From a virus, in the IMG/VR virus record IMGVR_UViG_3300022934_000025, positions 1-55,753 of that record: a stretch of 55,753 bases of DNA. The stretch is one strand, 5' to 3'. A model generated the notes under the pieces. That model was not told the origin of the DNA, did not search any database, and worked only from the letters and a program-made list of their open reading frames with translations. Positions 2,610 to 53,379 of this stretch are shown one piece after another. The position numbers and the translations under genes are program-made. Numbering within the stretch: position 1 is the first letter of the stretch; the number at the start of each line of letters is the position of its first letter.

Positions 2610-4148
2610 TCAAAATGGTGCCTCCTCTTGGTTTCCGAACGACGGGGTTTTTAGTTCAACATCTGCGCTTTCGAACGCAGGGATTTTCCAAACTCGTACA
2701 GCGCGGCCTTTGATCTTCAAGACCATACTGTCGCCATTAATATCACGCAGACGCTGCGCGATCTTGTGAGACTTATATTCGAAAAACTTATTCTTTTTGA
2801 GATAGCTTTCAAAGTCTTTGAGACGGAAGTAAGTGACCTCCTCCTCTTCATCAGTCCATGGGCGACGGAGCAGGATTTCTTCTTTGTCCTGCGCTTGCTG
2901 TAGGTGACTGCAAAATTCTTCAAGGTAATCGTAAAACTGTCCGCTGATGCTGGCGTCCTGCGCCACTTCAATAATGGCGCTTTCGTTGTCACGCATCTCA
3001 GTCATCAGGGTGCTAATGCGGCTTTCCCATTGTGCCTTCTGCACGGACCGCGGCATGAAGTTAAGTTGCTCCATGCAGGATTTCTGGAACATGGGCTGGC
3101 TCATCAAAGCGTCCGTGTCTAGCTCCAGAGGTTCGCCGTTAACGTCCATAAACCATACAGGTGGGGTGGAGTTATACTTGCGTAGGTTCGCTATCGTAGC
3201 GCCCGCTACAGCGGCTCCTATGCCAAATTTACGGGTACGACACAGTTCTTTGTTGCAGTGTGCGCTAATCGGCGCGTCAGAGCATTTGTATGCGTAGTCT
3301 TTGCGGTCTAGTTGCTTGGCAACTATGTTGACCTCCGGTAATGGCAATGGCGGAGATAGGAACTCCATGTTGTATCGTAGTATTTCTGACTCCCAACTAT
3401 CCGGGTACGCTTTTCGTAAGTACACCCCAATGTTGAATAGACCATTATTTCTGCCCCCTTCGCTGATGCGTTGCTTACAAAGTATCTGTAAACAGGGCGG
3501 TCCGTCCTTCATTAAGTCCGTTTCACCGCTGTCTACTATCTGTAGCTTAACAACCTCTTCTGGGGTTTGAGCGTATTTTTCGTATAGCTCTATGAACTCA
3601 TTTAGATCAGCGGATGTACCATCATCCAAGAATGCGTAACGCAAGCCGTTTTCGTGATCGTAGTATGGAAGGTTGAGAAAGTTTCCAACGTCACCCCGGT
3701 CGAGATGCAGCTTTACCTGCTTTGGGAATATCTCACTCTCGCCATAACCAAGCGCCGCGGACATGTGTTGCAGAGCCTTCTGCATGTCTTTCGCTTCAAC
3801 CCATTCTTTTGAGAACAGAAAGCAGTGCGCACCGCCAGACTTACTGCGGCACACTACTAAAGGTAACTTTAACTTTCTAATCTTTTGTACAAGTAGCTTG
3901 TGGTCGAGCGGATACTGGTCCACGTCGATGCAACCCCACTTGCACATGTTGTCTTCATTGATCGGGATGATACCCAATCCGTTGCCCTTGCCGGACAGAT
4001 GGTTTTCCCAAAGCTTCTTAGTCCGGGGTTCGCGTGTGACCCCCGCCTTGCCTTGCGCTTTACCGTTAGCTGCGGTCTTTTCAATCTTGAAGTAACCGTG
4101 TGCTTCTTTCAGGCCATCGAAGATAGCCATAAATTTCTCTAATGACAT
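2610..4148 (-). CDS. Archaeo-eukaryotic-type primase (TOTE/AEP-like)
   Basis: 512 residues from ATG 4148, which follows GGGGG at good spacing; earlier in-frame starts (4160, 4181) fall in or next to a terminator hairpin and are unlikely. CKWGCIDVDQYP near residues 69-80 supplies the D-x-D metal motif. SKSGGAHCF near 103-110 is the S-x-H motif, and GESEIFPKQ follows, as in AEP primases of the TOTE type. A downstream segment with CSDAPISAHCNKELC is a probable metal-binding knuckle, and the C-terminal half is a primase-associated helical region. It should lay primers for the polymerase encoded in the same operon. Confidence 0.87.
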   Translation of the reverse strand: MSLEKFMAIFDGLKEAHGYFKIEKTAANGKAQGKAGVTREPRTKKLWENHLSGKGNGLGIIPINEDNMCKWGCIDVDQYPLDHKLLVQKIRKLKLPLVVCRSKSGGAHCFLFSKEWVEAKDMQKALQHMSAALGYGESEIFPKQVKLHLDRGDVGNFLNLPYYDHENGLRYAFLDDGTSADLNEFIELYEKYAQTPEEVVKLQIVDSGETDLMKDGPPCLQILCKQRISEGGRNNGLFNIGVYLRKAYPDSWESEILRYNMEFLSPPLPLPEVNIVAKQLDRKDYAYKCSDAPISAHCNKELCRTRKFGIGAAVAGATIANLRKYNSTPPVWFMDVNGEPLELDTDALMSQPMFQKSCMEQLNFMPRSVQKAQWESRISTLMTEMRDNESAIIEVAQDASISGQFYDYLEEFCSHLQQAQDKEEILLRRPWTDEEEEVTYFRLKDFESYLKKNKFFEYKSHKIAQRLRDINGDSMVLKIKGRAVRVWKIPAFESADVELKTPSFGNQEEAPF

Positions 4149-4164
4149 CTGTGCCCCCATACGG

Positions 4165-4193
4165 AAAAAACGACGGGGCACAAGGCCCCGTCG
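4165..4193 (-). terminator. Rho-independent terminator after the SSB-like gene
   Basis: On the minus strand a 9-bp stem (arms 4185-4193 and 4171-4179, loop CTTGT) is followed by six T residues (4170-4165). It lies 10 bp past the stop of the 4203-4982 gene and just before the primase start. It should attenuate transcription from the first two operon genes into the primase and polymerase genes, giving more SSB-like protein than replication enzymes. Confidence 0.88.
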
Positions 4194-5674: not shown

Positions 5675-7123
5675 ATGATCGGCTACGAATACGAGACCCA
5701 ACCCTACGACCACCAACGTAAAGCGTTCGAAGACTCGTGGGCCGCGGAGTTTTATGCGCTTCTTATGGAGATGGGCACAGGCAAATCAAAGGTTGCCATT
5801 GATACCATGGGGGCATTGTTCGAGGCAGGAAAAATCAAAGCTGCGCTGATCGTTGCGCCGAAAGGGGTCTACGACAACTGGGTCAAAGGCGAAGTGCCGC
5901 TTCACCTCCCGAAGCGGATCGACCGTAGCATTATGCGATGGACGCCAGCAAAAACCCAGCGTTATGAAAATGACCTGAAAGATTTTATCGTGGACCGTGA
6001 TCCGAAGTTGAAGGTCTTCGTAATGAACATCGAAGCGTTCTCCTCTCAACGTGGCACCGAAGCTGCTACGGCATTCCTATACCAGAATCCCGACAACATT
6101 GTGATTGTCGATGAATCAACTACAATAAAGAATAGAAAGGCTGCGAGGACGAAGAACATTATCGCGTTGCAGGCACGGGCTAAATACCGCCGGATATTGA
6201 CCGGCTCCCCTATAACCAAGAGCCCTATGGACCTGTTCAGCCAATGTAACTTCCTTGCCGAAAAGGCGCTCGGCTTCAATAGCTACTACGCATTTCAAGC
6301 GCGTTACGCCAATGTTCAGAAACGGACCATGGGTCATCGCAGTTTTCAACAGATCGTGGGCTATCGACGGTTAGACGAACTATCTGAAAAGTTAGATCGG
6401 TTTAGTAGTCGAGTTCTAAAAGTCGATTGCCTTGATCTTCCGGTCAAAGTCTACACTCGTAGAGAAGTCCACCTTACACCAGAGCAAACCCGCCTGTATG
6501 TGCAGATGAAAAAGCTGGCGCTTGCCAAGCTTGAAAGCGGGGAACTAGCAACCACGGCTAGTGTGCTGACACAGATTATGCGGTTACAACAGATTTGCTG
6601 CGGACATTTGCAGCCAGACGACGGCGAGATACAGACCATTAAAAGCAACCGTTTGAACGAATTACTCGACGTGACTGAAGAGCTTCAGGGAAAAGCCATC
6701 ATTTGGGCGACGTATACACACGACATCCAACAGATAGCTTCTGCCCTGCGCGACCGTTTCGGGCCCGATTCGGTCGCAACCTATTACGGAGCAACACCAC
6801 AAGATGAGCGCCAAGAGATCGTTGAGAGGTTTCAAAACCCCTCTGATCCATTGCGCTTTTTTGTGGGGCAGCCCAAGACTGGTGGTTATGGCATTACGCT
6901 AACCGCTGCCAATACCGTAGTTTACTACAGCAACAGCTACGACCTAGAAATTAGATTGCAGTCAGAAGACCGTGCGCATCGTATTGGTCAGACCAACAAG
7001 GTAACGTACATCGACCTTGTGTCACCGGGCACGATAGATGAAAAGATACTAGAAGCGTTACGCAGTAAGATTGATATAGCCGGTAAGGTGCTTAACGAAG
7101 AAGTACAGGAATGGTTGCGCTAG
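5675..7123 (+). CDS. SNF2-type superfamily 2 helicase/ATPase
   Basis: 482 residues. The N-terminal lobe has Walker A MEMGTGKSKVA (residues 31-41), motif II VDESTTIKN and motif III LTGSPITKSP. The C-terminal lobe has the block IIWATYTHDI, then GGYGITLTAANTVVYY and the motif VI stretch QSEDRAHRIGQTNKV, the signature of SNF2/Rad54-like enzymes. Such phage proteins are dsDNA translocases or helicases in replication, recombination or host takeover. It is the only gene on the plus strand, with its own promoter at 5610-5637, and its stop overlaps that of the convergent small gene. The ribosome site is weak (TAGG). Confidence 0.93.
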   Translation: MIGYEYETQPYDHQRKAFEDSWAAEFYALLMEMGTGKSKVAIDTMGALFEAGKIKAALIVAPKGVYDNWVKGEVPLHLPKRIDRSIMRWTPAKTQRYENDLKDFIVDRDPKLKVFVMNIEAFSSQRGTEAATAFLYQNPDNIVIVDESTTIKNRKAARTKNIIALQARAKYRRILTGSPITKSPMDLFSQCNFLAEKALGFNSYYAFQARYANVQKRTMGHRSFQQIVGYRRLDELSEKLDRFSSRVLKVDCLDLPVKVYTRREVHLTPEQTRLYVQMKKLALAKLESGELATTASVLTQIMRLQQICCGHLQPDDGEIQTIKSNRLNELLDVTEELQGKAIIWATYTHDIQQIASALRDRFGPDSVATYYGATPQDERQEIVERFQNPSDPLRFFVGQPKTGGYGITLTAANTVVYYSNSYDLEIRLQSEDRAHRIGQTNKVTYIDLVSPGTIDEKILEALRSKIDIAGKVLNEEVQEWLR

Positions 7124-12857: not shown

Positions 12858-15754
12858 TATTCTGCACCGTTGTTTTGTTTACGCATGTCCAAAATTTGCT
12901 GACGCGCTGTGTCAGTGCTTTGATCCTGTCCTTCGACGTTACTTGTCCTTACAGTCGGCTTGAAGTTAAAACCCTCTTGGAATTTAAGCACTTCGTTATA
13001 CAAAACCTTCAGCTTCTGCATATCTCTTCTAGCGCCAGTAAGCTGTTTTTCGGTGTACATACCCGGACGACCACCATATTCAGGTAGGATACTTGCACCC
13101 AATTGCAGTTGCTGTTTCAGCGTAGACTCAATTCCGGCCAGAGCGGCTTCAGCATCGGCGTCTGTTTTTAAGAACAATCCACCGGGACGTATATTGGTAG
13201 TTTCACGTTCAATAAGCTCTTGAACAAACTTTAGGATTCGACCGCTATCCGTGTCAGAGGTGTTATACTGCAAAATGTCGTTAGCCAAGTTATCTAAGCT
13301 AGTTGCTGCCTTTGCAATGTTCTTAGCACGTGGGCTGGCGTCTCCGCCAAACAATTCTGCGGAACCCTCTGAGAACAATCGGCCAATACCCGGAATTACT
13401 CTTGAAGCACCTATTACTTCTCTGTAATCCAACTCCGGATCAAACAAATAAGCAGGTGTGGTGTTCCAAACTGGCGATTCGGTATTAATAGAGCCATCCG
13501 CATTCACAATTTCTGTTGTGGCGGTCATCACATTTGCTTCTGGCTCTGGCATCGGTTGCCCGTCTTCGCCTAGTTCAATGCTCGTGATCCGTGTGTAGAG
13601 GTTCGGGTTACCCTGACGAACAGCATCAAGAACAACATCACTTAGTTTACCCGCAGAACCTTGGACATAACGCCCAGAGGTATCGTCCCAAACATCCTTG
13701 GCTGACGTATAGTCAAGTAAAGCTTGCTCATAAAGCGCGGTTTCGTCACCCAGAGTGCCTTCTGCAAACGCTTTCATACGCTCTGGGTTTGTGATGTAAG
13801 TCAATTCGTCGGTTTTAGCTTTGCTACCTACCTTAGTTGCATTTGCCACCATTCGGTCAATAGCCAAAGAGCCCAGCTTGTAAGCCTCGTCCAGAGCCTG
13901 CGCTCTTTCTGCAAGGCCAAGCGACACATCTTTTTGATCCGCGCCGCGTACTGCGAGAGCTTCATCAAAGGCTCTGTTAGTTTTGGCAATCGCTCTATCA
14001 ATCTCAGCTTGATCGGACGTAAATTGCTGCATTTCTTCTTGCATAAGCCTACGGAAGGCTTGATCGCTAAGTTGCAGATTTTCTCTTTGCGCACGGTTAA
14101 GAGCATTTTCCGCCGCAGTAAATGCGTTTTGAAGCTCTTGGTTTTCGCGCTCAATCGCACCGCGATGACTGGCAAGAGCAAGGTTTTGCTCATGCCCGCG
14201 TTCCATCTTGGAAATATCATTGATATGCAAGATATTGTCGCGTTGAAGCGTATTTTCGAAGGAAATCTGATTTTCAGCGATACGCAATTCACTACCCAGA
14301 CGCATGTTTTCTTTCTGAAGCTGGTCTTTGAGTAATGTGGCTTGTTGCGAGTTATCAAACTCAAGCGCGATAAGAGCTTGTTGGTTAGCAAACTGTTGTT
14401 CACGCACCGTGTCTTGATAGGCTTGTGTGTCCAACCGCTCTGACGTAGTAAAGTCAAAACGCTCTTGCTGCATCTGTCTGTTAAAGGCGTTGTTAATCTG
14501 TGCCAGTTCTTGTTGAAGCTGACCACGTAAGGTGATGTCTGCTTGGCTTTGTGCGCCTCGTAATTGTTGCAACAAGTTTTGAGCTTCAATTTTGCGGTTT
14601 GCCAGACGCATTTGGAAACTTTGGTTAGATTCGTTTTCTTCTCGGTTAAAAGCAAACGTTCTATCCATTTTCAAAAGTTCATGCGCTCGGTCTTCTGCTT
14701 TTTCTTTAGATTTCCAAGCACGTTCTGCCGCGGCAGCCTTATTGTCAGCATCTACTTTAAGCTCAAAAGCTAATTGATTTTCGGCAGCACCTAAAGCTGA
14801 CAGGTTTAGTGCCCGCTTTTCTTTCTTCTGGTCTTGTTTAAATTTCTGAAGCTCACCCGCACGGGCACTAATGTTACCCAATACCGGAGTAAACGCTTGA
14901 GCTAACCGCTCTGCGGGACTCATACGGGTTTCACCGGGCGTTGCAAACATCAAAGCGCCTTGTGCTACATCAAATAGCATTTGCGCTCTTGTCGTTTGTT
15001 GCTGGTCAGCAAATTCTGCTTCTTGATCGGCAAGTCCTAAAATGTCTCCATAAACCGCCTGTTTATCCTGATATATTTGTCCAAGGCGGCTATCACCACC
15101 GTTTGCCATGTAAGCTACGGAACCGCCTTGGTTAAAATTTACGGGAGCAGGCCCTCCTTGAGCCTGATCCGGACCGCCCATATTGACGGTGGACATAATG
15201 CCTTCTGCCATAGCTCCTTCGATTGGAGCGTTCATCTCTTCGGCAGCCAAACCGCCGATCCCTTGATCGACCGCTGCCATCATCATGACGGGCTGTACCA
15301 GTGCCAGCACTGATTCAGGAGTTTGTTGAGCATCTTCCTGTCCAACGACACTAGCCAGTTCTTGGTAGCGTTGTTCGATAGGCTGGTCATCACCTCGAAT
15401 ACCGTTCATTACGGTTTCGTAATCTTCGGCGTTTTCAAGATCGTCCATACCTTGCGCGTATTGAGTCAACATGCCTTCGAGCATTGCGGGGTCAATGCCA
15501 TTTTGCATAGCGCCTTGCGCTGCTTGATTGATGTCTACGCTGTTGGGATCAATCGCGGGCATACTCTGCGGACTCATCTGTGGTCCGGGTGCCGCGGGTG
15601 CTGGCATGGGAGCCATGCCCCCATCCTGCATTTCGATCACACCGCGACCAATCAATATATCTTTCTGGGTAACATTCCCATCCCCGCTAAGGTCGGGAAA
15701 GGCTGCACCCCCTTTAGCAAACATCTGTCTGCTCATAACTTCTCTATTCATCAT
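12857..15754 (-). CDS. Large coiled-coil virion protein with dockerin/EF-hand-like loop
   Basis: 965 residues. Residues 21-32 (DLSGDGNVTQKD) match a calcium-binding EF-hand or dockerin loop (ligands D, S, D, G, V, D), inside a block FPDLSGDGNVTQKDILIGRG common in marine phages. It is flanked by KGGAAF and QDGGM, and NQGGSVAYMANGGD follows near residue 210. From about 240 to 640 a very long Gln/Glu/Arg-rich coiled coil dominates, then a globular C-terminal part. Probably an internal or tail-associated virion protein; the calcium loop could stabilise the particle in seawater. Coupled to its neighbours through TAATG overlaps. Confidence 0.72.
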   Translation of the reverse strand: MMNREVMSRQMFAKGGAAFPDLSGDGNVTQKDILIGRGVIEMQDGGMAPMPAPAAPGPQMSPQSMPAIDPNSVDINQAAQGAMQNGIDPAMLEGMLTQYAQGMDDLENAEDYETVMNGIRGDDQPIEQRYQELASVVGQEDAQQTPESVLALVQPVMMMAAVDQGIGGLAAEEMNAPIEGAMAEGIMSTVNMGGPDQAQGGPAPVNFNQGGSVAYMANGGDSRLGQIYQDKQAVYGDILGLADQEAEFADQQQTTRAQMLFDVAQGALMFATPGETRMSPAERLAQAFTPVLGNISARAGELQKFKQDQKKEKRALNLSALGAAENQLAFELKVDADNKAAAAERAWKSKEKAEDRAHELLKMDRTFAFNREENESNQSFQMRLANRKIEAQNLLQQLRGAQSQADITLRGQLQQELAQINNAFNRQMQQERFDFTTSERLDTQAYQDTVREQQFANQQALIALEFDNSQQATLLKDQLQKENMRLGSELRIAENQISFENTLQRDNILHINDISKMERGHEQNLALASHRGAIERENQELQNAFTAAENALNRAQRENLQLSDQAFRRLMQEEMQQFTSDQAEIDRAIAKTNRAFDEALAVRGADQKDVSLGLAERAQALDEAYKLGSLAIDRMVANATKVGSKAKTDELTYITNPERMKAFAEGTLGDETALYEQALLDYTSAKDVWDDTSGRYVQGSAGKLSDVVLDAVRQGNPNLYTRITSIELGEDGQPMPEPEANVMTATTEIVNADGSINTESPVWNTTPAYLFDPELDYREVIGASRVIPGIGRLFSEGSAELFGGDASPRAKNIAKAATSLDNLANDILQYNTSDTDSGRILKFVQELIERETTNIRPGGLFLKTDADAEAALAGIESTLKQQLQLGASILPEYGGRPGMYTEKQLTGARRDMQKLKVLYNEVLKFQEGFNFKPTVRTSNVEGQDQSTDTARQQILDMRKQNNGAE

Positions 15755-38906: not shown

Positions 38907-40910
38907 TTAGCCGCCGCCAGCGAGTGACCCAATGCCTCCTTGAGTTTCAGGTCTGCGGAAAGGATTGTCAGATACGGGCATTGTTTGTTGTGCCCCTGTC
39001 AAACCGTAAGAACTTGCGGATCGAACGTTCACTGGACCCGGTGCCGGTGCTGGACCACCCGTATTGTCCAAATCGCCTACAGGACCGACCGGGATAACGG
39101 AGTAACCGCCTTGTCCATCTGGAACAGTTCCTGACGGAATGCTACCAAAAGCACCCATACCAGCGTTTTGCCCAAACGGATTAAACCCTAGTAGATCAAC
39201 ATTAATACCACCGGGGTTACTTGCAAGATATTGATCTAACGCAGCTTGTTGTTCTGGCGTAAGTCCTGTGTTTGTCGGGTTAGTTGGAATAGGCGTTCCG
39301 GGCTCCAGATCACCATACTCGGCTAATTGACCGTCGGTTAAAAACTCTCCCGCAGGCGTCACATAATCTTCTGGATTAAAGCTGCCCATAAAATCAGAAG
39401 GCGAAGTACCTTGCGCTTCATTTATAGCACTTTGAGGCAAACCCGCGGGTTGCTGACCGGGTGTATATACACCTGTTTCAGGTTCCACAAACCCTCCAGC
39501 ATCCTGACCTAAACTGACCAGATCATCCAAAGTCAGGCCCCTACCAGTAGGTAGGCTTGGCGCTGGTTCTGGCGTGGGTTCCGGTGTTGGTCCGGGCGGT
39601 GTTGGTCCGGGCATTGTTGGCATTTCAAAATCGAAGCCTTCTCCGGGTAAACCGGTGAGGTCCAACGTGCTAAGGTCAAAAGAGCTACCGTCCGGTAAGG
39701 AAATAGTGTTTTCTGCTTCGACAACATCCCTACGGCCACCAAGAGATGCCATTTGCTCTGGTGTTGGAGCTACGGGTTCCCCAAGGTTTGGCAAAGCGGC
39801 TTGACCACGCCCCGGACCCTCAAGGTTTAATGTTGTTTGAGGCGGACCTGAAGGAGCAACAAACTCTTCTACCATAGGAAATTGATCGGCTAATGTCTCA
39901 ATACCTGATGTATCAATGTTTTGGAGAGCAGCAGCAATTTCAGGAGCGGGCTCCGGTGCTGGTTGCATTACCGGTGGCGGAACTTCCACAGGGGGAGGTG
40001 CCACGGGTCCAACTGTCCCACGTGAAAGAATATCTTCCGGAAGAGTAAAGTCCGCAGGTAAATCTATTGGTTCAGGCGTCATTACTGGGGGTGCCACAGG
40101 CTCTGGCGTAGGCTCTGGACCCGGTAAAACACCTTGAAAAGAACCCGGTGCCATAGGGGTTGGGACACCGGGCTGGCTAGGTGCCAAGGGAATAGGTGGT
40201 GCTACAGGCTCTGGTGTGGGCTGCATAACAGGCGGTGGAACCTCCACGGGTGGGGGTGCTACAGGCCCGACTGTTCCACGTGAAACAATGTCGTCTGGTG
40301 GAGCAGGTAAGTTAATCGGTGGTGGCACCTGTACCGGAGGTGGTAATTCATTGACCGGCGGAGCAGGTGGTAAAGGTGCCGCAACTGGGGGAGGCGGTGG
40401 AGGTGGAGGCGGCAATATCGGCTCAGGTACTGGCTGCGGTACTGGCGTAGGAATAGAAAATACAGGCTCTGGCGTAGGAGCAGGCATCGGCATCGGTTCC
40501 GGTACTTGCGGCATCGGTGCAGGCATGGGCGGCTCTGGAATTGGCAGAGGCGCAGGTTGTGGCACGGGCACTGGCGCAGGTACTTGAGGTACTGGCGCAG
40601 GCATAGGAATCTGCGGCTCCATTGGCGGCATAGGAATTGGTGGCACACCGGGGTTCGCAATAATCGGGCCAGATTCACCGGGTAAAGGCAGCGGCGGCTG
40701 CTTGATAGGAACCTTAACAGGCTCTGCTCTAGGAGGTTTTACAGGCAAGGGAGGCTGCTTGATAGGTACTTTAACAGGCTCTGCTCTAGGGGGTTTCACT
40801 GGTGCAGGCTGAACCGCGGGTGGAGGAGAAACCCCAACAGGAACTGGTGTAGGAAACTTAATGTCGAGCGGTAAGCCTCCGGGTGGCATAAATCTTGTAA
40901 AATCAACCAT
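38907..40910 (-). CDS. Proline-rich low-complexity virion protein
   Basis: 667 residues, over a quarter proline. The first 60 residues contain two copies of KPPRAEPVKVPIKQPPLP. Two further repeats centre on SRGTVGPVAPPPVEVPPPVM (DNA near 39970-40045 and 40228-40305). The C-terminal third is less biased (GLTPEQQAALDQYLASNPGG; VRSASSYGLTGAQQTMPVSD, NPFRRPET). An extended polyproline rod or flexible linker is expected, possibly a surface fibre or internal virion protein. An exact parS box (40272-40287) is contained in the coding sequence. Position between portal and lysis genes. Confidence 0.72.
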   Translation of the reverse strand: MVDFTRFMPPGGLPLDIKFPTPVPVGVSPPPAVQPAPVKPPRAEPVKVPIKQPPLPVKPPRAEPVKVPIKQPPLPLPGESGPIIANPGVPPIPMPPMEPQIPMPAPVPQVPAPVPVPQPAPLPIPEPPMPAPMPQVPEPMPMPAPTPEPVFSIPTPVPQPVPEPILPPPPPPPPPVAAPLPPAPPVNELPPPVQVPPPINLPAPPDDIVSRGTVGPVAPPPVEVPPPVMQPTPEPVAPPIPLAPSQPGVPTPMAPGSFQGVLPGPEPTPEPVAPPVMTPEPIDLPADFTLPEDILSRGTVGPVAPPPVEVPPPVMQPAPEPAPEIAAALQNIDTSGIETLADQFPMVEEFVAPSGPPQTTLNLEGPGRGQAALPNLGEPVAPTPEQMASLGGRRDVVEAENTISLPDGSSFDLSTLDLTGLPGEGFDFEMPTMPGPTPPGPTPEPTPEPAPSLPTGRGLTLDDLVSLGQDAGGFVEPETGVYTPGQQPAGLPQSAINEAQGTSPSDFMGSFNPEDYVTPAGEFLTDGQLAEYGDLEPGTPIPTNPTNTGLTPEQQAALDQYLASNPGGINVDLLGFNPFGQNAGMGAFGSIPSGTVPDGQGGYSVIPVGPVGDLDNTGGPAPAPGPVNVRSASSYGLTGAQQTMPVSDNPFRRPETQGGIGSLAGGG
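40272..40287. promoter_or_regulatory. Exact parS-like ParB box inside a coding region
   Basis: TGTTCCACGTGAAACA is identical to the classic ParB-binding parS sequence known from B. subtilis and is close to the alphaproteobacterial TGTTTCACGTGAAACA. It overlaps codons for V-S-R-G-T in the proline-rich protein. The sister repeat at 40014-40029 keeps 14 of 16 positions. Whether ParB binds it is untested. Confidence 0.6.
40696..40799. repeat. Tandem 57-bp coding repeat
   Basis: Two copies with a 57-bp period (from 40696 and from 40753) encode the 19-residue proline/lysine unit at the N-terminus of the proline-rich protein. They differ at a few bases. Confidence 0.85.
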
Positions 40911-41334: not shown

Positions 41335-43770
41335 CTAACCTCCTTGGTTTTTAAGTAGCTCACGCTGCATTGCAGCGTCGATACGTGCTTGCGTCTGACG
41401 CTCTTGCGAAGCCAATCGCTGGTCAAACTGCGCACTACGCATCTGTTGGTTCTGTGCATCCAACTGTACTTTAGCTTGGTCAATCGCTTGATCGGCCTGA
41501 TCGGCTTGAGCCCGAATCTGAAGCTCTTGCTCTTTAAGCTGTACCAACGGATCAGGCGCACCAGCACCCGACAACTGGCCAGACAGTTCTTTCACTTGCT
41601 GCAAGCCTTCTGCTACAAACTGCGCGGTCAAACGCTCAATCTCTAGCATCTCGTCATCACTAGCAGGCTGACCACCTTTTTGCTGCATCTGTTGTAGATA
41701 AGCAACAGCGGCCTGTTCTTTAGCAGCAATCTGGACGTGTTCCATAACGTGCTTTTGCAAAGACATAGCAACCGGAGGCAAGCCGCCAACCATAGGCGAC
41801 GAACCGAATACCAAGTGCGCTTGTATGTGCGCTTGGTGGTTTTGTCCCTCAAAAGCATGAAGCTCTAACATATCCAACGCGTTGATATTTTCTTGCGCGG
41901 GGTCGAGAGGCACGGGCTCCTCATCAGGAACCGACTTCATAATACGATCAACGTCAGTCACACCCAACGCTTCATACATATCTCTAAACACTTCAGCTAA
42001 ATTGTGAAGCTCTGGAGCCTGCGTCGCTAATTGAAGCTTAGTCTGTGCCAGCATAATACGTTGTGCTTGGCTAAATACATTTGGATTACTAACAGGTACG
42101 ACATCAACACGATCATCAAAGTCGCTCTGCATAATTTTTTTGTCACCACCAGCAACCGTATACGGGTATTGCTGTGGCAAACTCTCTGACATCACACGTG
42201 CCAGAATCTTAAACTCTTGGCGCATTGCATAATGCAACCGCTTATGTACAGCACTCATCACACGAGTGCCTTGCTCCATCATTGCTATGGTTGTACCAAC
42301 AGGAGCTTGTTGATTCCCATCACCTACCTTGAGGTCCGTGATCGTCGCAAAACGCTGACCGGCCTGCACCACAAAACCCAATAGATTGAACAATGTTTGA
42401 TCGGGCCCCTTAAACGGCAGCGGCATGAGGCTATCGCGAATAGCCCCACCCGGAGCGTCCACGTCGCGGAACTCACCGGGCTGCAAAGGATCGTCATCAT
42501 CCCTGATCCGTAGTCCACGGGCCTTGAAACCCGCAGGGAGATTGGACAACGTACCAGCGTCGATCAACTGTCGCAGTGCCGCCGTGGCGGTCCTCGATAG
42601 ACCACCAATCGTATGAATCAGACCTAGCCCATAGAAACCAAAACCGGGTAGGAATTTGAAATGCGTGAAGTATTGTATCTTCTTGCGTAGCTCGTCATCT
42701 TCGCGGTAATTACGGCGAATCGACAGTATCTGTCCGTTGTCTTCTGAAATTGTGACAATGTAAGGAATTTTAATGCCGGTAGGCTCACCGTCACTATCCA
42801 TGTCCTCATAACCTTCTAGGTCAAGATCAACATGGCATTCCAAAATTGTGCAGTCGTAATCAATCTGATTAGGTTCCAGACCCTCAATGCGGTCCATCTC
42901 ACCATCTAAATCAGACATTTCTTTCTGTGCAGGAATCACCTCAACGTCTAGGTAAGTGCCTGCAATCTGCCTCTTACGCAAATCGTTGAGCGACATGCGC
43001 ACAACCTGCGTAATGTTAGGACATGTTTCGAGGTCCGCGGTCTCATAAGGAACAACCAAGTTCTCCGCAGGGACAAACTTGGATACCGCACGGCCTAGCG
43101 TTTCATCGTAATACGTCTTCTTAAACGTAGAGCCCGCCAGCGGGAGATAAAACAACATCTGATCCATGTCAGGCGTGTATTCTTCCATCACATTCGTGAT
43201 GTAGTAGTTCATGAACTGACGAACACGAGCCGCTTGCTGCGTCTTAGATACCGTGTCCTTACCCATTACTACGGTGCGCACGGGCCCCGAAGCAGGTAAC
43301 AATTCATTAAAAGCTTGTGCTTGGAACTGCGTTGCAGCTTCTGCAAGCAGCGGATGCGTTACTCCGGAGGCTCCACGGAAAGGCTGAGTACGCTCATCGT
43401 AAGTAAAGCCCAAAAGCTCCAAACCGTTAGTGTAAGCATCTTCCCATTCTTGTCGGCTTGCTTTGTTAGCATCAAACTCACCAATCAAGTCGCTCGAAAT
43501 ACGAGCCAACTCACGATCAGGAATCTCTTCAGCTAGGTTTGCATAAAAATCGTCGCTGGTGCCGCGCTGATCCTGCGGATCAAAGTCGATTACAACACCA
43601 CCATCATCTTCGGGCTTGATCTCAATGGAACCAACGTCAGTCGCCTCAATGTCTGCCATCACAACATTCGAACTATCTGGCAACTCAAGCTCAACTTCAG
43701 CCGCTAATTCATCATTGTCTAACTGCGATGGTACATCCATCAATCCTGCATTTGGTTTACCATTTGCCAT
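41335..43770 (-). CDS. Portal protein (P22-like family)
   Basis: 811 residues. Key blocks are EIPDRELARISSDLIGEFDA, EDAYTNGLELLGFTYDERTQ, PFRGASGVTHPLLAEAATQF, MDQMLFYLPLAGSTFKKTYY, FHFKFLPGFGFYGLGLIHTI-type wing/stem residues and VQAGQRFATITDLKVGDGNQ. These match large portal proteins of P22-like and related podoviruses (P22 gp1 is 725 residues). The C-terminal region is a long Gln-rich helix (LQQVKELSGQLSGAGAPDPL and QERQTQARIDAAMQRELLKN), like the P22 barrel. It forms the DNA entry ring with the terminase encoded upstream. Confidence 0.9.
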   Translation of the reverse strand: MANGKPNAGLMDVPSQLDNDELAAEVELELPDSSNVVMADIEATDVGSIEIKPEDDGGVVIDFDPQDQRGTSDDFYANLAEEIPDRELARISSDLIGEFDANKASRQEWEDAYTNGLELLGFTYDERTQPFRGASGVTHPLLAEAATQFQAQAFNELLPASGPVRTVVMGKDTVSKTQQAARVRQFMNYYITNVMEEYTPDMDQMLFYLPLAGSTFKKTYYDETLGRAVSKFVPAENLVVPYETADLETCPNITQVVRMSLNDLRKRQIAGTYLDVEVIPAQKEMSDLDGEMDRIEGLEPNQIDYDCTILECHVDLDLEGYEDMDSDGEPTGIKIPYIVTISEDNGQILSIRRNYREDDELRKKIQYFTHFKFLPGFGFYGLGLIHTIGGLSRTATAALRQLIDAGTLSNLPAGFKARGLRIRDDDDPLQPGEFRDVDAPGGAIRDSLMPLPFKGPDQTLFNLLGFVVQAGQRFATITDLKVGDGNQQAPVGTTIAMMEQGTRVMSAVHKRLHYAMRQEFKILARVMSESLPQQYPYTVAGGDKKIMQSDFDDRVDVVPVSNPNVFSQAQRIMLAQTKLQLATQAPELHNLAEVFRDMYEALGVTDVDRIMKSVPDEEPVPLDPAQENINALDMLELHAFEGQNHQAHIQAHLVFGSSPMVGGLPPVAMSLQKHVMEHVQIAAKEQAAVAYLQQMQQKGGQPASDDEMLEIERLTAQFVAEGLQQVKELSGQLSGAGAPDPLVQLKEQELQIRAQADQADQAIDQAKVQLDAQNQQMRSAQFDQRLASQERQTQARIDAAMQRELLKNQGG

Positions 43771-44530: not shown

Positions 44531-45994
44531 TTAATAATACGCTTTCACTTTAACATGGTTTTCGTCATCTTCCCAGTCATCAGTTGGTAGCTGTACAAAA
44601 TTACCCTGCCTATATCGCATAAGTGCTTGCGTCATACTATCAACTAAGTCGTCATGCTCACCATTAGGAAAAGCCGCCACTTCTTCAATTAACTCGTCTG
44701 AAAAAGTTTCGTCGGGGGCCCAAACCATCCCTGCTTCAAACAATGGCGAGACACTATGTACTCGACTCACCTTATCGTTACCTCGACTCGGTGTAAAGTT
44801 AACAACGGGTATGCCCATGTTCCGTAATTCGTGCGTCAATGGCATACCGCTTGCTTTAGCCTCCACGATTACCGTGTCAGGCTCCCAAAACTTATAATTC
44901 TCAAGCGCAACTTGTTTTAACTCAGGGAAATCCCAGCGCCCTTTTTTGCTGTCAAGCAAAATCAAATTAGGACCCGATCCACCCTCGTTAGGATAAAATA
45001 CGCCCCACGTCGTTATCGCAGAATAGTCCGACGTTTCTCTTTTACTAAAAGCCGTATCGTAGCTCTGAATCACATATTCTAGCTGGGGGACCCTATCGCG
45101 ATCCCAACAGCGCCACCACTCGCGCTTAATAATCGCGTTCTCTTCACCCGTAGGATTTTGTTGATACTGCGCGTTCCACTTGGACGGAGGAATAGATGCG
45201 CGGACCGCGGTCAAATCGTCAAGAGACCAAAATTCTGGCCAGCACGGAGTCCCATCTTCAAAAATAGCGGGCAACTCCACAACTTCCCATTGATCGGCAA
45301 GCGGGTCTTTGGCCATCGCTTTCAATAATTGACCCGTCATGTCCTTCTCAGACCAACGTGTTTGAACCAAAACGATGCTGCCACCGGGCTGCAAACGCTG
45401 ACGAGGACCACCCGTGTACCAATCCCAAGCATCATCAAACCCAGAACTCGACATAGCCGTCTGCTCCGAGTGCGGGTCGTCAATGATTACCAAGTCACCT
45501 CCACGACCAGCCAAGTTACTGCCAACGCCAACAGCGTAATACATACCACCTTTGTTCGTGTCCCAACGACCAGACGCCTTACTATCCGCAGCAAGTTTCA
45601 CCTCCGGAAATATCTCTTTGAAATCATCACTCTCAATCAGGTTCTTGGTCTTCCTACCAAAATTCACAGCAAGTTCTGTCGTGTGCGTCGCCTGAATGAT
45701 CTTCTTGTTCGGCATACGGCCCATGAACCACGCAGGGAACAGATAGGACGCAAATTCGGACTTCGTGTGACGCGGTGCCATATTAATTATGAGCCGCTTC
45801 AATTCGCCCGTGGCTACCCGTTCAAGCTTTTCTGCAATGATCCGGTGATGACGGCCCGCGATGAACTCTGGCCAAACAGTTTTCACGAAAGTTAGAAAAT
45901 CATTTTGGCACTTTTCGTTCTTTTCAAGCTGCGCAAGCCGAAGCTCAAGCTTCAGTTTTTTCTCTTCTAGCAATGTATTTTGCGCTGCACTCAT
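44531..45994 (-). CDS. terL: Terminase large subunit
   Basis: 487 residues. The ATPase half has the Walker A-like APRHTKSEFAS (73-83), YAVGVGSNLAGRGGDLVIID with Walker B DLVIIDDPH (167-175), and VLVQTRWSEKDMTG as motif III. The nuclease half begins VIQSYDTAFSKRETSDYSAI (first catalytic Asp), continues VIVEAKASG (Glu) and ends GEHDDLVDSMTQALMRYRQG with the terminal Asp pair. This is the Terminase_6N/6C type. It cuts and pumps DNA into the capsid through the portal. The small subunit gene is 4.6 kb away (50637-51254). Confidence 0.94.
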   Translation of the reverse strand: MSAAQNTLLEEKKLKLELRLAQLEKNEKCQNDFLTFVKTVWPEFIAGRHHRIIAEKLERVATGELKRLIINMAPRHTKSEFASYLFPAWFMGRMPNKKIIQATHTTELAVNFGRKTKNLIESDDFKEIFPEVKLAADSKASGRWDTNKGGMYYAVGVGSNLAGRGGDLVIIDDPHSEQTAMSSSGFDDAWDWYTGGPRQRLQPGGSIVLVQTRWSEKDMTGQLLKAMAKDPLADQWEVVELPAIFEDGTPCWPEFWSLDDLTAVRASIPPSKWNAQYQQNPTGEENAIIKREWWRCWDRDRVPQLEYVIQSYDTAFSKRETSDYSAITTWGVFYPNEGGSGPNLILLDSKKGRWDFPELKQVALENYKFWEPDTVIVEAKASGMPLTHELRNMGIPVVNFTPSRGNDKVSRVHSVSPLFEAGMVWAPDETFSDELIEEVAAFPNGEHDDLVDSMTQALMRYRQGNFVQLPTDDWEDDENHVKVKAYY

Positions 45995-46031
45995 AGGGGT
46001 CCCTAGCTAATTTTTCACACGCAGTTTTCAA

Positions 46032-46047
46032 TGTTCCACGTGGAACA
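46032..46047. promoter_or_regulatory. parS-like palindrome 1 upstream of terL
   Basis: TGTTCCACGTGGAACA is a perfect 16-bp palindrome with 15 of 16 positions identical to TGTTCCACGTGAAACA parS. It is one of two such boxes centred 24 bp apart in the leader between a promoter (46080-46108) and terL. The phage encodes no ParA or ParB that I can recognise, so host ParB is the likely ligand. Confidence 0.75.
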
Positions 46048-46055
46048 TTTCACGT

Positions 46056-46071
46056 TGTTTCACGTGAAACA
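46056..46071. promoter_or_regulatory. parS-like palindrome 2 upstream of terL
   Basis: TGTTTCACGTGAAACA is a perfect palindrome identical to the parS consensus used by alphaproteobacteria such as Caulobacter. Between this box and the first lies an extra half-site, TTTCACGT (46048-46055). Binding of host ParB here, directly downstream of the late promoter, could tether the phage genome to the host segregation machinery or block transcription. Confidence 0.8.
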
Positions 46072-46079
46072 TAGCACCA

Positions 46080-46108
46080 ATTATATGCGATTTTAAGCAC
46101 AAATATAA
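46080..46108 (-). promoter_or_regulatory. Probable promoter of the terL late operon
   Basis: Minus-strand CGCATATAAT carries a consensus -10 (46085-46080), with TTATAT as -35 at 17-bp spacing (46108-46103). The same CGCATATAAT core occurs in the promoters at 47039 and 47581. Transcription would pass over both parS boxes before terL. The -35 is weak, so an activator may be needed for late expression. Confidence 0.6.
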
Positions 46109-46109
46109 G

Positions 46110-46537
46110 ACAGTTAATTCTGGTTCGAAATAACTGGTGATTATTTGCGAAAAACATGGCTCAAGCCCCCGCTTCGTAAACACGGGGCCGTGCGCGGTGG
46201 ATCGCGGTTTTTGGCTCCCGCTCCGTGCCATTTGACCCGATACGCTGGGGCCCCTGCCGACGGTTCGCGGCGCTTGGACCATGACCCGCGGCGCTTGGTC
46301 CAGCGGCCATGGCCGCGGATAACTGGCAGCGGCTGGGGTGCATCGTCCGCGGTTTAATTTTCACGGGCTGGGGTTCGGGGTTCGGGGATCGCGCAGCGCG
46401 GCCCGCTGCCGACGGCCTGCCGCCCGCTAACTTTTGCCAACTGGGCACGGCCTGCGGCCATGGGATCGCGGCCCGTAGGTTTTGGGAAGGGAGCGCGGGG
46501 CGGGGCCCGCCTTGTTTAACTGGGAAACACTAGGCAC
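46110..46537. other. GC-rich non-coding island
   Basis: About 430 bp without a convincing gene. After about 40 AT-rich bases the sequence becomes very GC-rich with recurring words such as CCGCGG, GCGGCC and CGGCGCTTGG (twice, near 46269 and 46291), and a CGGCCATGGCCG palindrome near 46302. Open frames on both strands are Ala/Pro/Arg-rich, lack ribosome sites and contradict the codon use of their neighbours. It may hold a structured RNA, a packaging or origin site, or acquired DNA. Confidence 0.5.
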
Positions 46538-50326: not shown

Positions 50327-50683
50327 GCCAAAAACTTTTTGCCAGTCAAGTGCACCAGCTGCGTGATAATGCGCGGGGACCTTCAACCCTTCCAGCTTCA
50401 GATCAACAGCGTCCGCTCCGCGGTATAAAAAAATTTGCTCAGGTTGATTTTTGGTTTTGTGTTTTTTAACCAAGACCCAAACGCTGGCGTGACCATGATT
50501 GGTTAGCCAAGCCACTTGGTGAGGCCGTAGGTCCACCGCATTACCTGCGGTCGCTTTCAGTTCAATAAAATGAAACTGACCAAACTCGTCACACAAAACA
50601 ACATCGGGCACACCGGGCATCGCCCACGTTTCAAGCCTAGTCGCTTTCAGATTCCTGCCAGTCTTCTCCATCCCCGTTTTCAT
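50291..50683 (-). CDS. PD-(D/E)XK nuclease (VRR-NUC-like)
   Basis: 130 residues from ATG 50683 (GGAGG just upstream); the longer frame to 50770 runs inside the small terminase gene. ETWAMPGVPDVVLCDEFGQF, then HFIELKAT provides the PD...ExK catalytic set (Asp in GVPDV, Glu and Lys in IELKA), followed by LRPHQVAWLTNHGHASVWVL, the helical end usual in VRR-NUC and Holliday-junction resolvase-like nucleases. It overlaps the small terminase gene by 47 nt and may resolve or trim DNA before packaging. Confidence 0.82.
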   Translation of the reverse strand: MKTGMEKTGRNLKATRLETWAMPGVPDVVLCDEFGQFHFIELKATAGNAVDLRPHQVAWLTNHGHASVWVLVKKHKTKNQPEQIFLYRGADAVDLKLEGLKVPAHYHAAGALDWQKVFGLISPTTSHTIP

Positions 50684-51254
50684 CTGCCTCCAAAAGTCGG
50701 CTTCTCGCTTTGTCGCGGTTCTGGGGATTGCTCTCTCCTTCGGGAGTAACGTCGATAGTGATCGGGGCATAACTTTGTTTAATCTCCTTGAGCGCCCTCA
50801 ACACTTCATCCTTGCTCATACTGTCAATGCTGCCAGTGCGGATTTCGCTCTTGTTTACATAAATGTCACCTTGCGCTTGCCCGCGCCTGTATTCTGCCTG
50901 AACGGCTGCGCTGTATGCGCCGTTGTTTAATGCCATGTCGCGGATGACCTGAAGGTCCCGCAAATGGCGTTGGTAGTTCACACCAAACTTTTCATCCAGT
51001 TCTGCACGATAAGCTTGGATCGCTGCCACAACATGAGGGCTGATGTTTGGGTTGGTTAGTTCATACGCTCTGGTGTGAGCAGACCCTGCGGGATAGCCAG
51101 CATTGATTGCTGCCTCTCGCATTGTGATCTGACCATCCTTCGATACCAGTTCTTTAACAAACAGTTCTTGCTTTCGCGTTAGCTGCTGGGCTTTGGTTGC
51201 CTTGGGTCGTCCTACCCTTTTCTTTGGGGCAGGAGCTACTGATTTACTTGGCAT
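50637..51254 (-). CDS. terS: Terminase small subunit (Terminase_2-like)
   Basis: 205 residues. A basic N-terminus (PAPKKRVGRPKATKAQQLTR) leads to LTRKQELFVKELVSKDGQIT, MREAAINAGYPAGSAHTRAY and ELTNPNISPHVVAAI, the DNA-binding HTH region of Terminase_2 small subunits. A helical oligomerisation part (EKFGVNYQRHLRDLQVIRDM) and an acidic C-terminus (ADENGDGEDWQESESD) follow. It recognises the packaging site and delivers DNA to TerL. The ribosome site GGAGAATTAA precedes the ATG. Confidence 0.85.
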   Translation of the reverse strand: MPSKSVAPAPKKRVGRPKATKAQQLTRKQELFVKELVSKDGQITMREAAINAGYPAGSAHTRAYELTNPNISPHVVAAIQAYRAELDEKFGVNYQRHLRDLQVIRDMALNNGAYSAAVQAEYRRGQAQGDIYVNKSEIRTGSIDSMSKDEVLRALKEIKQSYAPITIDVTPEGESNPQNRDKARSRLLEADENGDGEDWQESESD

Positions 51255-52715: not shown

Positions 52716-53016
52716 CACGTTCCTCCTCTGCGATGTAGACACGCTTCATTGGTTTAGTGCGAAAGAACCCTTTGTAGTCTGGGTACTCGTGCATGAACAA
52801 CCGAGCGTAAAGCGCAATGAAGTCGTTAGAGATTTTGTATTCGTTACCGGTGGTTACGATCATCGTTTCCCACCGAATCCTGTTGACGATAAGCCATGCT
52901 GAAAGTCTACGGTGCCCTTTCTGGATAGCTTGAAAGGTGAACTTTTTAAATAGCTCATAGAACTCTGGGTTCTCTTTGTGCCACGCCCACCATTTATCTT
53001 TGAGATCGTCTGTCAT
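52696..53016 (-). CDS. Conserved phage protein of unknown function
   Basis: 106 residues. The core RRLSAWLIVNRIRWETMIVT, then YKISNDFIALYARLFMHEYP, YKGFFRTKPMKR is a recognisable family spread through phages of many bacteria, usually in early or accessory regions. It is helical with conserved Trp, Arg and Phe residues. No function is established to my knowledge. The ATG overlaps the stop of the HTH gene. Confidence 0.8.
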   Translation of the reverse strand: MTDDLKDKWWAWHKENPEFYELFKKFTFQAIQKGHRRLSAWLIVNRIRWETMIVTTGNEYKISNDFIALYARLFMHEYPDYKGFFRTKPMKRVYIAEEERDENTNH

Positions 53017-53351
53017 CCAAATAACGCGAACGCGATAGCTGCAAGGAATCCGCCAACAGCGGCTTGCAGGATGAACTTATGCTTGACGTACCATGGCTCG
53101 TGGTCCGCGTCCCAATGCGCGTCAGTCTCTTCGTAGGTGACATCGACTGCGGTTCGTTCGGCGTTGTTTTTAAAGCACCAAGCTAGGATAGCGCCGCGTT
53201 CCCAACGGTTAACCATCTTTGGCCCGCGGGTCGCGGTGGTTGGAACTTTGACGGGGGATGGAAATTCACCCACCTTTACCTTTCGGTAAACGGTGGGCTT
53301 GCTGACCTGCGCGAGGTCGCACACTTCTTCGATGGTAATCAAATCTTTCAT
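53013..53351 (-). CDS. AlpA/MerR-like HTH protein with C-terminal membrane helix
   Basis: 112 residues from ATG 53351 (GGAG six bases upstream); ATG 53363 is an alternative adding four residues. Residues 1-55 (LITIEEVCDLAQVSKPTVYR, KVKVGEFPSPVKV, VNRWERGAILAWCFKN) form an AlpA/excisionase-type winged HTH. The C-terminus (KHKFILQAAVGGFLAAIAFA, LFG) is a single membrane helix. A DNA-binding domain tethered to the membrane is unusual in phages and might localise the genome or sense the membrane. First gene of a four-gene operon. Confidence 0.8.
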   Translation of the reverse strand: MKDLITIEEVCDLAQVSKPTVYRKVKVGEFPSPVKVPTTATRGPKMVNRWERGAILAWCFKNNAERTAVDVTYEETDAHWDADHEPWYVKHKFILQAAVGGFLAAIAFALFG

Positions 53352-53379
53352 AACGTTCTCCATGTAGACTTACATAGAG

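Follow-up and report, generated by a model that had tools for sequence, protein, structure and literature searches.

The ParABS systems of P1, N15 and the mycobacteriophages encode their own ParA and ParB together with their own site. Like them, the phage lineage described here carries a centromere-like site on its genome; unlike them, it lacks ParA and ParB genes and uses the consensus of the bacterial chromosome. In the virulent phage phi29, host Spo0J is needed for spore entrapment, as summarized in PMC9437464 (citing Meijer 2005). The phi29 genome contains four perfect parS sites, and phi29 resembles the present lineage in being a phage without ParB or integrase that bears perfect host-type parS. 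The phi29 sites are scattered and largely coding, whereas those of the present lineage, a different phage family with marine hosts and no known spore to enter, cluster at one putative late promoter.

KorB, a ParB-family clamp of plasmid RK2, silences promoters from sites that lie between 4 bp and more than 1 kb away (PMC11790492). The parS sites analyzed here, at +1, at the -10 position or 32-33 bp upstream of a predicted promoter, fall within this operator range. KorB and KorA are both plasmid-encoded, whereas the clamp here would be host chromosomal ParB, and no KorA-like locking partner was identified in the phage studied here. A second parallel is CtrA-dependent 'lytic deferment', in which several unrelated alphaproteobacterial phages have sites for a host cell-cycle regulator in their promoters (PMC9437464). 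The shared feature is the placement of host-regulator binding sites in phage promoters; the difference is that CtrA is a response regulator, whereas ParB is a segregation clamp, and the text of PMC9437464 mentions neither ParB nor parS.

Chromosomal ParB has been considered as a gene regulator in several bacteria. In Pseudomonas aeruginosa, host ParB at the intergenic parS3/parS4 represses PA0011 and PA0013, and a test promoter with parS placed upstream shows lower expression (reviewed in PMC7022226). In Bacillus subtilis, loss of Spo0J leaves parS-adjacent genes unchanged, and in Vibrio cholerae and pneumococcus the effects of ParB on neighboring genes are small (reviewed in PMC7022226). The data from the latter three species suggest that ParB on its own may repress only weakly.

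The window, by which we mean the whole stretch of 55,753 bases that was analyzed, is a single virus record. It encodes TerL, portal, TerS, a family A DNA polymerase, a UvrD-type helicase and a primase-like protein, along with many small genes without assigned function (Table 1). The polymerase is truncated at one end and the helicase and primase lie at the other, suggesting a near-complete genome cut inside the polymerase gene. The closest isolates are HTVC023P-type podoviruses (HTVC027P, HTVC023P and 023Pt_psg01), with TerL identities to the window of 55-63% (62.6% for Pelagibacter phage HTVC027P). These pelagiphages have the gene order primase, helicase, polymerase, terS, terL, portal in common with the window and differ from it in lacking perfect parS at terL. 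No perfect parS was found near terL in HTVC027P, HTVC023P, 023Pt_psg01 or DSL-LC04, and Roseobacter phage CRP-901 likewise has none in its terL region. HTVC027P, an isolate whose host is cultured, carries the sequence CGTTTCACGTGAAACA, a parS with one mismatch, in the intergenic region between gp31 and gp32 (15834-15849 of L201). Host assignment from bacterial bins was attempted and rejected: terL relatives are scattered over Verrucomicrobia, Rhodobacteraceae, Euryarchaeota and other bins, indicating that the binning is unreliable.

Table 1. Positions of parS sites, leader elements and selected genes in the window.
Feature	Position	Strand	Remarks
parS site 1, promoter-proximal, TGTTTCACGTGAAACA	46056-46071	(-)	Exact match
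parS site 2, terL-proximal, TGTTCCACGTGGAACA	46032-46047	(-)	Exact match; kept at -53 from terL in relatives
Spacer between parS sites, 8 bp	46048-46055	(-)	Not conserved; 7-9 bp in tandem leaders
Third perfect parS, TGTTCCACGTGAAACA	40272-40287		Inside codons of a proline-rich repeat (IVSRGTVG) of ORF 38907-40910
Putative late-promoter block, TTAACTGTCTTATA-N10-AAATCGCATATAAT	46080-46117	(-)	TATAAT at 46085-46080; single copy in window; promoter activity inferred
Upstream element, ATGTTTTTCGCAAATA	46142-46157	(-)	Found in the majority of the clade's terL leaders
terL ribosome-binding region, AGGGACCCCT	45995-46004	(-)	Conserved GGGNCCC palindrome
terL, terminase large subunit	44531-45994	(-)	First gene of late operon; phrog_38, E 1.4e-112; ATG at 45994
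Portal protein	41335-43770	(-)	Same gene cluster, downstream of terL; phrog_1216, E 3.9e-54
Proline-rich repeat protein, 667 aa	38907-40910	(-)	Without family match; GC skew opposite to surroundings
terS	50637-51254		About 5 kb from terL leader
HTH_17-like protein	53013-53363
Primase related to AEP-TOTE domain	2610-4181	(-)
SNF2-type helicase	5675-7123	(+)

The parS pattern was defined as the 16-bp palindrome TGTTNCACGTGNAACA, in which 14 bases are fixed. About 2e-4 perfect matches are expected by chance in 55.7 kb, and the window contains three. Sites 1 and 2 are spaced 24 bp apart, both between the conserved late-promoter block and terL, and by their sequence these two palindromes are genuine parS sites. 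The preliminary description had reported this pair between the terL promoter and terL, and both palindromes prove to be exact. Its statement that they equal the centromere sequence of bacterial chromosomes also holds, with the same sites present in 27 of 31 Rhodobacteraceae genomes. The half-site that it placed between the palindromes is not a conserved feature, as the spacer shows 13 sequences in 29 tandem leaders. The third site was rejected as a functional candidate; it falls within codons of the repeat, and the near-complete 55.7 kb record of the close relative L121 (G020) does not contain it, having the two leader sites only. It is therefore probably incidental.

Viral contigs were scanned for pairs of parS sites no more than 30 bp apart, which gave at least 119 stretches. 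Among the matches listed, 55 encode a more or less similar TerL homologue, and the majority of the 55 are close relatives in which the sites lie a short way upstream of terL. Because this set was chosen by parS itself, the unbiased test was run on relatives found by TerL alone. The 80 loci obtained in this way span 675 kb, in which 0.0025 perfect sites would be expected by chance. They contain 55 perfect parS sites, every one of them in the terL leader and no farther than 1.2 kb upstream of the gene; the remaining sequence has none, and a reversed-pattern control gave zero. Considering the 76 TerL-selected leaders of at least 100 bp, a perfect parS is present in 44 and a site with at most one mismatch in 47, within 1.2 kb upstream. 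Such a site is missing from the other 29 leaders (~40%). Most of these parS-less leaders retain the promoter block, indicating that late expression can do without parS. Gain or loss of parS accounts for at least 10 changes among the TerL-selected loci and thirteen in the full set.

The leader sites are also constrained in sequence. In the 29 tandem leaders, both 16-mers change at nothing but the two positions that the consensus does not fix, and the variation there is almost only T/C and G/A. When one mismatch is allowed, the leaders contain 107 sites, of which 104 are perfect. Variation at the two N positions together with a free spacer is the pattern that ParB contacts predict. As a separate observation, 28 of the 29 tandem leaders pair one TTTC/GAAA site with one TTCC/GGAA site, in either order, and the TerL tree requires seven or more switches of this order. 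One leader (L049) has two hybrid sites, as expected from an inversion between the palindromes.

Two adjacent palindromes might alternatively act in RNA: by pairing in the leader transcript they would form a hairpin that influences the translation of terL or the ends of the transcript. The folding of the leader RNA is better than that of shuffled sequences (z -2.7), with a centroid structure that pairs the two sites, and an RNA family search returned two sub-threshold matches only. Such a hairpin is impossible in lineages with a single site, and sites upstream of the promoter would not be transcribed from it. Changes in the stem sit at the two parS-degenerate positions, without compensatory changes along the stem. 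A role in RNA is therefore the least probable of the explanations considered here and can be given very little weight.

On the minus strand, the leader is ordered as promoter block (46117-46084), parS, parS, ribosome-binding site and terL start codon. We infer from its conservation that this block is the late promoter; it is conserved in leaders with parS and in many relatives without parS. Positions of parS relative to this block were read from the sequences themselves and fall into several arrangements. In the window, parS starts 8 nt after TATAAT, at approximately the predicted transcription start, and the offset from the CGCATA box to parS is fixed at 12 nt in the window and in L124, L125, L135 and L145. 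In L136, L140, L141, L173, L194 and L138, parS abuts CGCATA and overlaps the -10 position. In the L175/L178 group, parS lies 32-33 bp upstream of TTAACTG. More distant relatives (TerL identity 57-60%) have three or more parS sites 336-552 bp upstream. In some loci, parS and the promoter are together yet displaced from terL, by ~1.04 kb in L187, L190 and L197 and by 255 bp in L138. This joint movement indicates that the feature being kept is parS at the late promoter and not a set distance to terL.

Other elements of the leader are conserved as well. The element ATGTTTCTCGCAAATA precedes the promoter block by ~25 bp. It is conserved also where parS is absent and faintly resembles half of a parS site (GAGAAACA); it is possibly a binding site for a late activator. 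Across the clade, the ribosome-binding site of terL keeps its GGGNCCC palindrome, in the forms AGGGACCCCT, AGGGGCCCCT and AGGGTCCCCC. In L175, L177, L178, L191, L192 and L213, where parS is upstream of the promoter, an extra inverted repeat of the form TTGCCTAATTATTAGGCA directly follows parS.

The placement of the sites bears on two explanations that do not involve transcription. In the first, when an infection is slow or has stalled, host ParB, with ParA and SMC, would tether or segregate phage genomes and thereby pass phage DNA to both daughter cells, the leader being a convenient non-coding spot. The Spo0J-dependent entrapment (Meijer 2005, through PMC9437464) of phi29, with its four perfect sites, is a precedent for this use, and the ~18 h latent period of HTVC027P (PMC12753301) makes slow infection possible. 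A centromere, however, would work anywhere in a 56 kb genome, yet 55 of 55 sites occupy one leader, at differing positions around the same promoter. The leader makes up ~6% (166 bp) of the non-coding DNA of the window, or 20% when doubtful small ORFs are counted as non-coding; by this rough estimate, repeated placement there is unlikely under random insertion into non-coding DNA. ParA, ParB and integrase were also not found in 12 records of the lineage. We consider segregation of this kind unlikely as the main role of the sites.

In the second, parS would mark a start of packaging or replication next to terL, with ParB or SMC organizing the phage DNA. Chromosomal parS lies near the origin, and the phage sites lie just upstream of terL. 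Against this, terS is ~5 kb away, GC skew has no clear turning point at the site, and the sites follow the promoter where terL is displaced. A packaging or replication mark is very improbable on these grounds.

The protein that binds these sites is most likely supplied by the host. Domain searches of the window for the ParB N-domain, the ParB HTH, ParA and integrase were all without match, in agreement with the preliminary description of a phage without visible parA or parB. With positive controls in use, no match to ParB_N (PF02195) was obtained in 42 records of the lineage, and none to ParB HTH (PF17762) or ParA (PF13614) in 12 records. The absence of a phage ParB or ParA homologue from these searches makes host ParB the most likely ligand, and on sequence grounds host ParB, rather than a phage protein, very probably loads at the leader parS. 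The core proposal of the preliminary description, a loading site for host ParB in a ParB-less phage, is thus supported, at the level of sequence, by the strong conservation of parS in the terL leaders of related phages, a check that it had itself suggested.

A different DNA-binding protein, of phage or host, could use the same recognition sequence as an operator with no involvement of ParB. The link between the sites and a promoter is operator-like, and the window encodes an HTH_17-like protein in addition to its small genes of unassigned function. The sequence nevertheless equals the chromosomal parS consensus, down to which positions vary, and no ParB-HTH protein is encoded, leaving another binder quite improbable.

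The leader parS has the sequence common to bacteria in general, and Rhodobacteraceae chromosomes serve here as a comparison; the family of the Rhodospirillales MAG contains a single genome and added nothing to it. The 27 genomes with perfect parS each have one to three sites, all of the TTTC/GAAA type. There are usually two, ~1.9 kb apart. The idea that the phage tandem was copied from a host was rejected on this basis: the 24-bp tandem is absent from all 31 sampled genomes. With one to three parS per chromosome, a single phage genome would equal the chromosome in number of sites and a replicating pool would far exceed it.

The findings suggest that phages of this lineage use host ParB, and the most likely purpose is the timing of late gene expression. 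The best explanation, to which we assign a probability of roughly 0.4, is a gate of host ParB on the late promoter that is released by dilution as the phage replicates. When a single phage genome enters the cell, host ParB-CTP clamps would load at the leader parS, accumulate, and slide across the leader and the late promoter, so that expression of packaging and head genes stays low. Replication would then multiply parS, leaving fewer clamps per phage genome because chromosomal parS sites are few and the ParB pool is limited, and the late promoter would be released. Host ParB would in this way be the counter in a copy-number-sensitive gate. HTVC027P lacks its own RNA polymerase and uses that of the host (PMC12753301); if the window phage does the same, RNA polymerase and ParB clamps would meet at the late promoter.

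The components of the ParB gate differ in strength. From position and precedent, we judge an effect of parS and ParB on late transcription to be slightly favored, and repression early in infection that is lifted by replication to be a tentative suggestion drawn from the same considerations. The fuller idea, that the virus gauges its own genome copy number by titrating host ParB and thereby couples its lytic program to chromosome segregation, is possible but doubtful. One finding against the gate is that the position of parS relative to the promoter varies by lineage, which a classical operator would not permit; a sliding clamp would, and because the clamp slides, sites downstream of the promoter, overlapping it or upstream of it would all be workable. 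The preliminary description had named three outcomes, hitch-hiking on host segregation, silencing of late genes and titration of ParB, without choosing between them; the link to the promoter favors control of late genes, possibly together with titration, and makes simple hitch-hiking less attractive.

Titration could also be an end in itself, with a replicating phage absorbing host ParB and upsetting segregation, SMC loading and ParA/DnaA control to its own benefit. Hosts of the Rhodobacteraceae type have about two parS sites, a number that tens of phage genomes, each with one or two, would exceed, and unrelated phages also have multiple sites, up to eight in ~320 bp. A weapon of this kind predicts many freely placed sites, whereas the number in most relatives is one or two, and these are confined to the late promoter. 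We regard it as improbable; titration may also be no rival to the ParB gate but a by-product of it.

If the ParB gate is correct, a widespread marine phage group regulates its genes through a segregation clamp found in nearly all bacteria, obtaining a simple copy-number timer for its late genes. It would also provide a defined, testable case in the debate on whether chromosomal ParB regulates genes. Bacteria differ very little in the sequence that ParB recognizes, suggesting that a host can hardly escape and that the same design is possible in many hosts. Phage use of host ParB has a precedent in phi29; placement of parS at a late promoter appears unreported, as no description of promoter-linked parS in phages was found in the literature searched, which covered few subscription journals.

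About half of the at least 119 listed tandem-parS viral contigs lack a TerL like that of the window, and in unrelated contigs tandem parS occurs near terminase, portal or replication genes. ParB_N was unmatched in 45 of 50 tandem-parS records, many of which are fragments. If host ParB is used by these phages too, tandem parS in unrelated lineages would make such use a general viral strategy, and the yield of the pattern search suggests that phages exploiting host ParB can be flagged from sequence. In phi29-like contigs, tandem or triple parS lies between tail, head and connector genes (L005, 5525-5566; L028, 2842-2880; L072, 7933-7994). A low-GC viral contig (L107, 6137-6460) packs eight perfect parS sites into ~320 bp, with a spacing of 38 bp in most cases, and is unmatched by ParB_N. 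Xenohaliotis phage pCXc-HC2016 (L223; 35.7 kb), from an intracellular bacterium, has three perfect parS sites, at 15413, 15822 and 17747.
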